This document shows positions 22,905 through 56,211 of a DNA stretch of 64,000 nucleotides, piece after piece (within the stretch, counting starts at the first letter, position 1; every line of letters begins with the position of its first letter). Origin of the DNA: Reyranella sp. (GTDB taxonomy: Bacteria; Pseudomonadota; Alphaproteobacteria; Reyranellales; Reyranellaceae). The DNA is taken from contig NZ_SCVC01000021.1 of assembly GCF_004297405.1 (NCBI RefSeq), positions 186,001 to 250,000 of the forward strand, in the 5' to 3' direction. Below the pieces are notes generated by a model. That model saw only the letters and a program-made list of their open reading frames with translations. It ran no database searches and had not been told where the DNA came from. The position numbers were made by a program, and so were the translations under genes.

Positions 22905-23014
22905 AAGGCCGGTTGTTCCTGTGCGCAGCGGCGATACTACGTTCGGCCTGCCGGCGTAAAGCCAAACAAATGCAAGGCGCTTGCGCCCAGCCGCAGGGGT
23001 CCGTATAGAACTCA

Positions 23015-23070
23015 CCGTGGAATTTGAGCCGACCGGCTTGCGGCCACGTTAAACACCGCTAAAAGGTCGG
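23015..23070 (+). promoter_or_regulatory. SAM-II riboswitch of metX
   Basis: The RNA fits the SAM-II fold. P1 pairs CGTGG (23016-23020) with CCACG (23044-23048). The pseudoknot P2 pairs CCGACC (23029-23034) with GGTCGG (23065-23070), 6 of 6. The conserved ATTTGA, CTTGC, TTAAA and GCTAAA segments are at their expected places. SAM-II binds S-adenosylmethionine and lowers expression of methionine synthesis genes, here metX and metW. A strong terminator begins 8 bases after P2. Confidence 0.92.
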
Positions 23071-23078
23071 AGCGCTCG

Positions 23079-23112
23079 AAAAAGCCCCCGCCCTTCCGGT
23101 CGGGGGCTTTTT
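23079..23112 (+). terminator. Intrinsic terminator in the metX leader
   Basis: AAAAAGCCCCCG and CGGGGGCTTTTT form a 12-bp stem with loop CCCTTCCGGT, ending in the T-run. It lies between the SAM-II aptamer and the metX start (40 bp downstream), so it is placed to act as the off-state of the riboswitch. No alternative antiterminator pairing is obvious; it could also simply end transcription from the opposite side. Confidence 0.85.
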
Positions 23113-52405: not shown

Positions 52406-53602
52406 CTATCGGCGTGGCGCCATGAGGCGGGGCTGGCCGTCGTCTTGCGGCAGCTCGGAGGTCGGCTTGAACGCTTGGGCGAGGGCTTCGGCGCGCTTGC
52501 GGTCGCGATCGGAAACTTTGTCGGCGAGCTTGTCGCGCGCTGCGCTGGCGTCGGGGCGGCCGCTGCGTTCGGCGAGCAGTAGCCATTTGTAGCCTTCGGC
52601 CGGATCAGTCGCGCCGCCAGCACCACTTACCAGCAATACGCCCAGCGCCTGCTGCGCTTCGGTAAGCCCTTGCTGCGCAGCGCGGTTGTACCAGAGCTGG
52701 GCTTGCGCCGGATCGCGCGGGACACCGACGCCGCCGAGATAGGCATTGGCGAGCTTGAACTGCGCCGATGGCACGCCGCCGTTGGCGGCGAGTTCGTACC
52801 AAGCGATGGCGATCTTCAGCGCTTTGTCGTTGGCAGCTTTGTCGCGTTGCATAGGCATGCGCACGGCAATGTCGCCGAGCGCGAGTGCGGCCTCTGGTAC
52901 GCCGTTCTCCTGAGCCTGCACCAGCCAGCGATGGGACGCCGAGAGATCTTTCTTGACGCCGGCGCCTTCGGACAGGGCGAGGCCGTAGCGCAGCGCGGCC
53001 GTGGGATGGCCTTTCTCCGCAGCACGGCGGAACAGATCGGCGGCGCGCGTCGTATCGGCCGCCACCGGCGGAGCGGCTTCGTCCATCGCGCGTCCGAGGG
53101 TGTAAAGCGCATAGGGGTCGCCGTCGGAAGCTGCCTTCTCGAGCCAGGCGCGCGCCTGGACGAGATCGCGTGGCACGCCTTGGCCGCGAAGATAGAGCAG
53201 GCCGAGATTGGTCTGGGCGCGGCGATGGCCTTGCTCGGCGGCCTTGGTGAACAGCTCGGCGGCGCGCGTGTCTTTGCGCGGCTGGCCGGCGTCGCCACGG
53301 GCATAGACCAACCCAAGTCGGTGTTGGCCTTCGGCCGATCCGGCATCGGCTGCACGTTGGATCAGCCGAAGTCCTTCGGCCGTAGCGCCGCGCTCGATCA
53401 GGATGGCGCCAAGCCAGGCGTCTGCATCGGCGCTGCGCAGCGCGCGCAGCGCCTGCTCGGCCGTGGCCACGTCGCCCTGGCGATAGGCCGTGACCGCAGG
53501 GCGCAGTGCCGCCGCGACATCCGACGCATCGCTTCGCTGAGCTTGAGCGGCTGTGCTCGCGACGAGCAGCGCCGCGACCAGCGCCGCTCGTGCGGCAATC
53601 AT
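52406..53602 (-). CDS. Exported Sel1-like repeat protein
   Basis: 398 residues with a signal peptide (AARAALVAALLVASTAAQA). At least seven Sel1-like repeats follow, of the type AAELFTKAAEQGHRRAQTNLGLLYLRGQGVPRD, so it forms an alpha-solenoid scaffold in the periplasm. The C-terminal tail is Lys/Arg rich. Function unknown. Coupled by ATGA to the upstream smaller Sel1 protein. Confidence 0.88.
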   Translation of the reverse strand: MIAARAALVAALLVASTAAQAQRSDASDVAAALRPAVTAYRQGDVATAEQALRALRSADADAWLGAILIERGATAEGLRLIQRAADAGSAEGQHRLGLVYARGDAGQPRKDTRAAELFTKAAEQGHRRAQTNLGLLYLRGQGVPRDLVQARAWLEKAASDGDPYALYTLGRAMDEAAPPVAADTTRAADLFRRAAEKGHPTAALRYGLALSEGAGVKKDLSASHRWLVQAQENGVPEAALALGDIAVRMPMQRDKAANDKALKIAIAWYELAANGGVPSAQFKLANAYLGGVGVPRDPAQAQLWYNRAAQQGLTEAQQALGVLLVSGAGGATDPAEGYKWLLLAERSGRPDASAARDKLADKVSDRDRKRAEALAQAFKPTSELPQDDGQPRLMAPRR

Positions 53603-54096
53603 TTCGTCTTGAACTGGAAGGCCATCGCTGCGGCCTTGGCCTTCTCGACTTCGTCGGGCTTCAGTTCACGAGCCGCCTGATCGAGGGCGAGCTGGGCGTT
53701 GGGTACGTTCCACTTCTCGGCAATGGCGCACCACTTGTAGGCCTCGAACAGGCTCTTCGGTACGCCCTTGCCTTCGGCATAAGCGCCAGCCAACGGGATC
53801 ATCGCCGGCAGATAGCCGCGCTCGGAAGCATCGAGCAGAAGTGGCGCGGCTTTGCTGAGGTCGAAGAGCTTGGATTCGGCGTTGCCGTAGATGTAGAGGC
53901 CAAGCAGGAACTGGGCGCGCGGATCGCGTTCCTTGGCAAGGACCTGCAGGTCCTTTTCCGCCGCGACGACATCGCCGGCTTGCAGTGCCTTTACGGCTTC
54001 TTCCATGTTGGCGGAGGCGGGCAGGGCGAGCGCGCCCAACATCACGACAGCGCTGGCCAAAGGAAGAAGAGCACGGCAGGAACGGACAAGGCGCAC
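53599..54096 (-). CDS. Exported small Sel1/TPR-like protein
   Basis: 165 residues from GTG 54096, preceded by GGGAGC and giving a clean signal peptide (VRLVRSCRALLPLASAVVMLGALALPASA). Two or three Sel1/TPR-type helix pairs follow (ALQAGDVVAAEKDLQVLAKERDPRAQFLLGLYIYGNAE; AYAEGKGVPKSLFEAYKWCAIAE). The open frame reaches 54252, but the extra residues would hide the signal peptide. Probably a periplasmic partner of the next, larger Sel1 protein. Confidence 0.82.
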   Translation of the reverse strand: MRLVRSCRALLPLASAVVMLGALALPASANMEEAVKALQAGDVVAAEKDLQVLAKERDPRAQFLLGLYIYGNAESKLFDLSKAAPLLLDASERGYLPAMIPLAGAYAEGKGVPKSLFEAYKWCAIAEKWNVPNAQLALDQAARELKPDEVEKAKAAAMAFQFKTK

Positions 54097-54549
54097 GGAG
54101 AAGCTCCCGATGTCTGTGGCCGGTCGTGCCGGCCGATATTGGCATGACGCCGCGTCGTCTAGCATGGAATTAGGGCTGAAACACGAAACGCCGCCGATCC
54201 GCGCGGCACGATCTGTAGTTTGCATTGAGTTCTGACGGCTTGTGCACTGCAAATTCTCATTAACCTATTGCAAACACGACATTTTCTTTCTCGACCGCCT
54301 TATTGTGCGCGTTGCCTGCATTCCCCTTCCCGACTATCTGATGAGCGAATTGTGCAGGAATCCTTAGTCTTTTGGAGACCTCGCCAAATTCAGATATGCA
54401 ATTTTGCAACTAACGGGAGTGGGTTCTCATTTGTTAGGGTGCCCTCATAAGAGACGCTTCAGCGTCGTCGAAATTCATATCTGGAAGGAATTCAAAGCTG
54501 GCTGCGCTTCTCTGGAGCGCGCCGTACACCAAGATCCGAATGCCCGCCG
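54097..54549. other. AT-rich intergenic region without a convincing gene
   Basis: About 450 bp. Bases 54215-54430 are AT-rich and contain several TTTGCA/TGCAAA elements (54219, 54247, 54268 areas) plus operator-like motif copy 2 at 54392. A 75-codon frame from 54404 overlaps the sRNA-like hairpins and has no recognisable protein features, so it is not called. Confidence 0.5.
54392..54408 (+). promoter_or_regulatory. Operator-like motif copy 2 (AGATATGCAWTTYTGCA)
   Basis: AGATATGCAATTTTGCA, with the same TGCA-N4-TGCA core as copies 1 and 3. It lies upstream of the first sRNA-like hairpin cluster and could regulate it. Confidence 0.55.
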
Positions 54550-54675
54550 GCGGCCTCCCAAGCCGCTCGTTGAAGCCCCCTTCCCACACACCCCAGGGCT
54601 TCGACAACCCCACACCCAGGCGGGTTTCTAAGGAAGGCCGGTCGTTCCCCAAGCGGCCGGCCTTTCGTATTTTTG
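54550..54675 (+). ncRNA. Candidate small RNA A with anti-SD hairpin loops and terminator
   Basis: Three hairpins in a row: CGGC-CTCCCAA-GCCG (54551-54565); GAAGCCC/GGGCTTC (54572-54602) with a C-rich loop containing CCTTCCC; and a terminator AAGGCCGGTCG/CGGCCGGCCTT-type stem (54634-54664) followed by TCGTATTTTT. The loops can pair with Shine-Dalgarno sequences, as in alphaproteobacterial suhB/alpha-r14-like sRNAs. It resembles cluster B at 55583. The 5' end is not defined. Confidence 0.5.
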
Positions 54676-54830
54676 ACCTGTTTGCGGGACGTGGTCGACC
54701 CTTCCGAGATACTAGTAAAAGGCTGGATCCGCGCCGACGGGCGCATCAATTCTGCGCGCCTTCTGCAATGTCAGATCACCCAAAAACGCCTATCTCGGAG
54801 AAAAAATACCGCGAAAATCAGGCATATTAT

Positions 54831-54859
54831 TTGACAAGATATGCATTTTTGCAGATTAC
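54831..54859 (+). promoter_or_regulatory. Promoter of the TetR-like gene with operator motif copy 3 in the spacer
   Basis: A perfect -35 TTGACA (54831-54836) is followed by exactly 17 bases, AGATATGCATTTTTGCA (54837-54853), then GATTAC as a weak -10. The conserved motif thus fills the whole spacer, a position where a bound repressor would block RNA polymerase. The TetR-type gene starts 63 bases on. Confidence 0.6.
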
Positions 54860-54921
54860 GGCGGTGCGGCGGCATGTTAAGATTCAGCCATTAAAGCAAA
54901 TCTTATTTTATCGGTTCACCT

Positions 54922-55572
54922 ATGAAAATTGTCGGATTCCCAATCGACGTAACGCGTTCGCAGGATGGCCGCATCGTTCGTGGCCTGCGGACCCGCCAAG
55001 CCTTGATCCAGGCAACCCTCGACCTCATCCAAGCCGGTGACGTCGAACCGACGTCCGCCGCCATCGCCACCATCGCCGGTGTTTCGAGCCGCGCGCTCTT
55101 CCAGCACTTCACCAGCCTCTCCGATCTCTACGCGGCGGCCTTCGATCTTGCGGTCGGCCGCGCCTTCGATGGCAACCGGCCCGTCGACGCTACGGCGCCG
55201 CTGTCCCGTCGCATCGAATTGCTGGTCTCCGATCGCGCGCAGCTCTTCGAGGAGTGGCTGCCGGTTTGGCACTTCGCCGAGCGCGTGCGCAGCGTGGCGC
55301 CCGCCGTCGGCATGGGGGTCGTGCAGCTTCGCCGGCTTCTACGCGAAAGGATCGCCGCATGGTTCGAGGTCGAACTGAGCAATCTCGATCCAGGCTCGCA
55401 CGATCTCGTGCTCGATTCGCTCGATCTGGCCTTCGGCCTCGATAGCTGGATGAACATGCGCGAACAGCTTCGTCTTTCGCCGATGCATGCCTCGCGGACC
55501 TGGCGTTTCACCGCGCAGGCAATCGTCCTGCAGGCGCTCACAGTTCCCGATCTGCCCGTGGCGGTGGCCTAG
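54922..55572 (+). CDS. TetR-family transcriptional regulator
   Basis: 216 residues from ATG 54922. TetR DNA-binding domain: RIVRGLRTRQALIQATLDLIQAGDVEPTSAAIATIAGVSSRALFQHFTSLSDLYAAAF. The ligand-binding half (about 75-216) is helical and unassigned. It resembles the regulator at 18907. Its promoter carries operator-like motif copy 3. An sRNA-like hairpin cluster with terminator follows 10 bases after the stop. No dedicated target operon adjoins it. Confidence 0.85.
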   Translation: MKIVGFPIDVTRSQDGRIVRGLRTRQALIQATLDLIQAGDVEPTSAAIATIAGVSSRALFQHFTSLSDLYAAAFDLAVGRAFDGNRPVDATAPLSRRIELLVSDRAQLFEEWLPVWHFAERVRSVAPAVGMGVVQLRRLLRERIAAWFEVELSNLDPGSHDLVLDSLDLAFGLDSWMNMREQLRLSPMHASRTWRFTAQAIVLQALTVPDLPVAVA

Positions 55573-55582
55573 TCAGCCACCG

Positions 55583-55690
55583 AGGCGAAGCTCCTCCCAA
55601 CACCCCAAAGGCTTCGTTTCAAACCTCCCACACCAGTCACGGGCCATCGCGGAGGCCGGCCGTTCCCCAAGCGGCCGGCCTCTTCCGTTT
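55583..55690 (+). ncRNA. Candidate small RNA B (or TetR 3' UTR) with CCTCCC loops and terminator
   Basis: CGAAGC (55586-55591) pairs with GCTTCG (55611-55616) around a loop with CTCCTCCC. A second exposed CCTCCC lies at 55624-55629. The terminator has a 10-bp stem, GAGGCCGGCC (55652-55661) with GGCCGGCCTC (55673-55682), and loop GTTCCCCAAGC, followed by a weak T-tract. The terminator loop and stem match cluster A nearly base for base, showing common origin. Anti-SD loops suggest a trans-acting sRNA. Confidence 0.5.
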
Positions 55691-55694
55691 CGGC

Positions 55695-55724
55695 AAAGAA
55701 AAAGGCGACGGCATTGCCGTCGCC
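55695..55724 (-). terminator. Intrinsic terminator of the cytochrome c' gene
   Basis: On the minus strand GGCGACGGC (55724-55716) pairs with GCCGTCGCC (55712-55704) and is followed by TTTTTCTTTG. It lies about 30 bases after the cytochrome gene stop. Confidence 0.85.
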
Positions 55725-55755
55725 TTCATCTCGAAAGCGCCGATATCGGTTGGGC

Positions 55756-56211
55756 TTAGTTCGCCTTGGCGCGGAACTTGTCGTGGCACGCACCGCAGGC
55801 CTTGCCGGTCTCGCCGAAGGCTGCCGTCAATGCCTCGAGATTGCCCGACCCGGCGGCGACGGCGAGCTTGTCGTAGGCGGCGTCGGCTGCCTTGTTGGCT
55901 GCCTGGAAGCCGGCCATGTCGGTCCAGATCGCGGGGAGAGCCTTGGTCTCGCCCTTGTCGGAGCCGGCCGGGAACATCTTCACGAAGGAGGCTTCGAGGG
56001 TTTTGAGCTTGGCCGCCTGCTCGACGGCGCCGCTGGTCGCTCCCTTGGCGTCGATGATGCCCTTGATCGCGCGCATCGCGGCGGCGGCCTGCTTGCGGTT
56101 CTCCTTGCGCTCGGCGATCACGTCGCCTTGGGCCATGGCGATCGTCGCGCCGCCCACCATCGCACCGGCAGCAAGCGCGCCGATCAGTGCCACAACCAGA
56201 GTCTTCCTCAT
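55756..56211 (-). CDS. Cytochrome c' (class II c-type cytochrome)
   Basis: 151 residues from ATG 56211, with AGGGGA upstream. A signal peptide (MRKTLVVALIGALAAGAMVGGATIAMA) is followed by a four-helix-bundle protein with the heme motif CGACH at the extreme C-terminus (Cys139, Cys142, His143), the mark of cytochrome c'. Periplasmic. Such proteins bind NO or act in electron transfer. It is divergent from a cytochrome b561-like gene, a likely membrane electron partner. Confidence 0.93.
   Translation of the reverse strand: MRKTLVVALIGALAAGAMVGGATIAMAQGDVIAERKENRKQAAAAMRAIKGIIDAKGATSGAVEQAAKLKTLEASFVKMFPAGSDKGETKALPAIWTDMAGFQAANKAADAAYDKLAVAAGSGNLEALTAAFGETGKACGACHDKFRAKAN

Follow-up and report, generated by a model that had tools for sequence, protein, structure and literature searches.

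Rhizobial ar14/NfeR1 (SmelA075) is an anti-Shine-Dalgarno sRNA, which silences mRNAs by pairing at their initiation region (PMC10746234, PMC3927594). By definition, ar14 folds into three hairpins that all expose the same CCUCCUCCC loop (PMC10746234). In Rhodobacter sphaeroides, the CcsR1-4 sRNAs are derived from the 3′ UTR of ccaF1, a protein gene involved in their fate (PMC8625941). A transcription factor controls sRNA genes within a feedback circuit in the LuxR/HapR-Qrr, LuxT-qrr1 and VqmA-VqmR systems (PMC2680268, PMC8043402, PMC13251380).

In the stretch analyzed here (the window, 64,000 nt of a 6.46-Mb alphaproteobacterial genome), RNA A, a gene for a TetR-family regulator of 216 aa and RNA B follow one another on the + strand, flanked by a minus-strand gene (53599-54252) and a minus-strand cytochrome c′ gene (55756-56211). 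The source organism, Reyranella, is a bacterium of soil and water. The initial annotation had described two related hairpin clusters flanking a TetR-like gene, and both were recovered in place. A search with the TetR protein yielded 49 further loci, in Reyranella and Reyranella-like assemblies, and RNA A was present upstream of tetR in 48 of 49 loci; the sole exception (L086) begins at a contig end near tetR. The mean identity to the window was 89% for RNA A, 80% for the tetR DNA and 57% for the A-tetR spacer, which suggests that the constraint on A is stronger than that on the protein gene. In the open-licence literature, nothing relevant was found for Reyranella, small RNA and TetR, and to our knowledge the RNA family of A and B, which is absent from Rfam, is undescribed. 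Elsewhere in the window, a SAM_alpha riboswitch (RF00521) was detected at 23007-23082 (+) with 51.5 bits, above its gathering score.

The clusters had been likened to suhB/alpha-r14-type sRNAs, an assignment that we had to abandon. In the region 54200-55760, the ar14 model (Rfam RF02344) scored 23.6 bits (E 0.067) at A and 20.7 bits (E 0.29) at B against a gathering score of 58.8; suhB was unlisted up to E 10 in the same region and had no match at its gathering score in the window. The sub-threshold ar14 scores and the absence of a suhB match thus give no support to membership of A or B in either family. Three hairpins with identical CCUCCUCCC loops were not found: the loops of A are CUCCCAA, CCUUCCCACACACCCCA and UUCCCCAAG, and B carries CUCCUCCC in one hairpin only. 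Like ar14/NfeR1, A and B have several C-rich-loop hairpins with variable stems and conserved loops, and an intrinsic terminator. In contrast to the threefold CCUCCUCCC of ar14/NfeR1, the loops here are CCCUUCCCACACACCCC and UUCCCCAA, and both hairpins of A are enclosed by a closing stem. NfeR1 is under LsrB and NtrC control, whereas a TetR gene adjoins the RNA here.

The core of RNA A (54539-54668, +; 151 bits with the covariance model) consists of a closing stem around two hairpins, a C-rich linker and an intrinsic terminator. The closing stem (AGCCCGCC...GGCGGGCU) encloses hairpin H1 (54549-54567, +; loop CUCCCAA) and hairpin H2 (54569-54605, +; loop CCUUCCCACACACCCCA), both as predicted from the fold, and the terminator (54632-54666, +) exposes the conserved loop UUCCCCAAG. 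Comparison among loci places a putative 5′ leader at 54447-54538 (+); it is shorter in one divergent clade, and no conserved start codon was seen in it. The RNA folds at -66.8 kcal/mol (z -6.7 relative to dinucleotide shuffles) into four helices, and the C-rich loops vary hardly at all; in the alignments the H2 loop (CCCUUCCCACACACCCC) is almost unchanged through the genus. The consensus was taken from a structure-guided covariance model, since an automatic consensus fold suffered from misalignment and was dropped. In this model, fitted to 48 copies of A, 99.3% of the cells are paired. Two-sided changes occur at 9 of 36 pairs (3 of 6 in H1); shuffles gave 2.6 such pairs, and slid partners no more than 2. 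These counts lean towards the structure, which the alignment had been made to follow. Among the copies, loops and linkers vary in length by one or two bases, which is evidence against coding. Matches of the A model on the antisense strand corresponded to terminator stems. Collectively, the alignments show that selection maintains the structure of RNA A.

RNA B (55573-55690, +) occupies the tetR 3′ region immediately behind the stop codon and comprises a counterpart of the second hairpin of A (55582-55620, +; loop CUCCUCCCAACACCCCA from the fold), a C-rich linker, a small CCCAGYCACGGG hairpin and a terminator-like hairpin (55651-55683, +) with the same loop as in A. It folds at -46.8 kcal/mol (z -5.2 relative to dinucleotide shuffles), and its own alignment shows two-sided changes at 7 pairs. 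The common terminator that had been proposed is there: over 29 nt the terminator arms of A and B, which are separated by 1018 nt, are 97% identical, and both RNAs contain the GAAGC...C-rich loop...GCTTC hairpin. Exposed CCTCCC-type loops had also been claimed. Here the main loop of A reads CCCCCUUCCCACACACCCC rather than CCUCCC, but CUCCC does occur in the small first hairpin of A and CUCCUCCC in the window's B. In a whole-genome search, the model of A matched B with 70 bits (E 1.1e-10), from which we conclude that A and B are homologous, as expected of the duplicated structured RNA that had been suspected. The same model matches B in ∼31 loci with 54-94 bits; more divergent species have no B after tetR. 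No promoter specific to B was recognised, and B looks more like an element of the tetR 3′ UTR than like a second independent sRNA gene, although it could possibly give rise to a second, 3′-UTR-derived sRNA. With its neighbouring homologous copies and with B in the tetR 3′ UTR, the locus resembles that of CcsR1-4. Unlike CcsR1-4, A has its own operator-bearing promoter, and the protein gene encodes a TetR regulator, not CcaF1.

A repeat detected within the locus led to a 20-bp operator-like motif (RTATGCRNNNTTGCANNTNA). It occurs as ATATGCAATTTTGCAACTAA in the RNA A promoter (54394-54413, +) and a second time in the tetR promoter (54839-54858, +), and these are its only two exact matches in the 6.46-Mb genome, compared with none for the reversed control; the chance count expected in the window from shuffles is 0.00. 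When two mismatches were allowed, the matches were at background level (17 forward and 8 reverse vs. 12 and 9 for the control). The exact motif is present in 55 of the 61 genomes of the genus, nearly always as the A/tetR promoter pair, with no control match in any of them. In every locus holding it, a copy precedes tetR by 79 to 85 nt. In almost all promoters of A and of tetR, the operator start is followed at a fixed spacing of 36-38 nt by a -10-like element, seen as a conserved block (TTgtTaaGtT). In the window these elements are TGTTAGGGT for RNA A (54432-54440, +), with a predicted transcription start near 54447, and TGTTAAGAT for tetR (54875-54883, +), whose predicted start site leaves a 5′ UTR of ∼30 nt. 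A common and rare operator at a regulator gene and at an sRNA gene is the arrangement of an autoregulated regulator-sRNA module, and in this respect the suggestion of a regulator-sRNA module was borne out at the sequence level.

The model of RNA A found matches in 55 of the 61 Reyranella-genus genomes. The genomes without RNA A either lack the neighbouring cytochrome c′ gene as well or end at a contig edge, so that its absence is uninformative on dependence, an assembly gap being as likely. Outside the genus (385 genomes of the class, strict filters), a single 30-bit match (G393) was obtained and judged to be due to chance. The covariance model also revealed an extra RNA copy distant from the tetR locus in six genomes of the genus. 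Such third copies have an exact operator upstream in G002, G003 and G016 (L148, L149 and L150, on C1, C8 and C1, respectively) and keep the H2 loop, suggesting that the operator accompanies the RNA family and is not a feature of this locus alone. L148, L149 and L150 carry a further inverted half-site (GCATATCT), which precedes the operator by some tens of bases. The operator is degenerate at the extra copy of G014, and none was recognised at L152 (G049, C227) and L153 (G026, C177); the extra copies of G049 and G026 are possibly decaying or under different control.

The regulator (54922-55572, +) matched Pfam TetR_N (PF00440) with 24.2 bits at a cut-off of 24. Its structure predicted by AlphaFold (pLDDT 84, 10 helices) matches TetR-family chains such as NalC, KstR and EilR, and the Pfam match and the model together place the protein in the TetR family, with a TetR_N HTH and an all-helical ligand-binding domain. 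An NCBIfam search with the protein gave weak matches only, from which no ligand could be named. The N-terminus (MKIVGFPVDVSRSQDGR; 54922-54987 in the window) is highly conserved among the orthologues, and its first nine residues are modelled at low confidence.

We consider it about two-thirds probable that the locus is a dedicated module, in which TetR controls itself and RNA A through the shared operator, the C-rich loops engage G-rich translation starts by base pairing, and B is a duplicated copy forming the tetR 3′ end. TetR would bind the ATATGCA-N4-TTGCA operator beside its own promoter and beside that of RNA A, with joint control of tetR and the sRNA as the consequence, and this control would extend to the distant extra sRNA copy in three further genomes. 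Transcription of RNA A and its control by TetR are inferred; the position of the operator, which abuts the -35 region, fits both repression and class-II activation. RNA A is predicted to terminate at its intrinsic terminator with the C-rich loops exposed. RNA B would have arisen by duplication and come to form the 3′ end of the tetR mRNA, for which it would act as terminator.

It may be asked whether the adjacent TetR is the protein that binds the motif. In L082 and L083 the recognition helix reads PKATLASYF and AAHDLERMF, vs. SSRALFQHF, and both operators are unchanged, so that the binder might be another protein; each genome also encodes many TetR paralogues. RNA A would then still be an sRNA with B as its homologue, but the motif would be bound by some other factor, for instance a global regulator or another TetR paralogue, and the adjacent TetR would be only a target. 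A global factor, however, would have more than the two or three exact sites seen per genome, almost all of which are at tetR or at an A-type RNA, and we regard another binder as unlikely.

On the module reading, the loops of A would pair with the G-rich translation-initiation regions of mRNAs and block their translation, in the manner of the NfeR1 or CcsR anti-Shine-Dalgarno sRNAs. Sequences upstream of starts were compared with internal controls, and the H2 loops paired preferentially with the upstream regions of 42 window starts (p 0.015 for A and 0.018 for B), in a crude test with uncurated starts, 7 loops and raw p values, of which a cruder earlier version gave no signal. The positive controls in this test, the 16S tail (p 0.005) and the ar14 motif (p 0.029), gave comparable values. 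We regard anti-Shine-Dalgarno action as likely. No conserved target mRNA was found in searches with the complement of the invariant loop ahead of a start codon (TGTGGGAAGG-N(2-12)-ATG). The recurrent TGTGGGAAGG matches were rejected: they fell in the antisense strand of the RNA itself, in a coding stretch of what we take, from the translations, to be a zinc-type dehydrogenase and in the coding sequence of a presumed lgt. A secreted protein of ∼184 aa (MIRAI...) has, in many species (L162, L173, L182, L186-L215), a ribosome-binding site containing GTGGGAAGG, to which the H2 loop of A is complementary. It keeps GTGGGAAGG even in two genomes in which the RNA was not detected (G009 and G020), and it had no match at E 1e-20 in the window's genome, which makes it a lead only. 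Base pairing between the tetR start and the leader of A was also rejected: the leader matched its cognate tetR no better than it matched other tetR starts, and no better than shuffled leaders did.

The lack of a target in these searches would suit another role, in which A and B are mainly elaborate terminators, A insulating tetR from upstream transcription and B ending the tetR mRNA, with loops that serve a protein or the stability of the RNA instead of mRNA pairing. Both RNAs do finish in a strong terminator-type hairpin, and B begins where the tetR coding sequence ends. A plain terminator, however, has no use for the conserved promoter and operator that A possesses; moreover, the upstream multibranch domain of A shows compensatory changes and conserved loops, and A relocates to distant loci along with its operator. 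We therefore give this explanation still less weight than that of another binder. That A is a cis-acting tetR leader, such as a riboswitch or attenuator, is highly improbable: A is on the same strand ∼250 nt upstream of tetR and has a multibranched, aptamer-like core, but it ends in a terminator, every locus has a conserved tetR promoter separating A from the start codon, third copies reside at unrelated loci, and the C-rich loops are unpaired in the model.

When the proposed TetR-sRNA module is compared with the Vibrio circuits, the regulator belongs to the TetR family, as do LuxR and LuxT. In contrast to those systems, tetR and the sRNA gene are adjacent; the Vibrio factors act on many or other genes, whereas the exact operators in the window's genome are found only at tetR and the sRNA. 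The luxR mRNA is an sRNA target, but the tetR mRNA offers no evident Shine-Dalgarno target: a G-rich Shine-Dalgarno sequence is absent from its 5′ UTR, so that the regulator would probably escape silencing by its own anti-Shine-Dalgarno sRNA. More tentatively, and with the odds slightly against it, the whole TetR regulon may consist of TetR itself and a family of C-rich-loop sRNAs, the protein being a ligand sensor that acts only through RNA and the RNA copies having spread with the operator.

What is new here is (i) an RNA family; (ii) the linkage of this family to a TetR gene throughout the genus; and (iii) an operator that has no other targets. Given the rarity of the operator, one protein, two promoters and one RNA are enough for a test of the circuit. 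If the proposed module is correct, it would add an RNA family from a common, little-studied alphaproteobacterial genus, and it would represent a simple natural one-component sensor, whose recognisable direct outputs are only itself and sRNAs.
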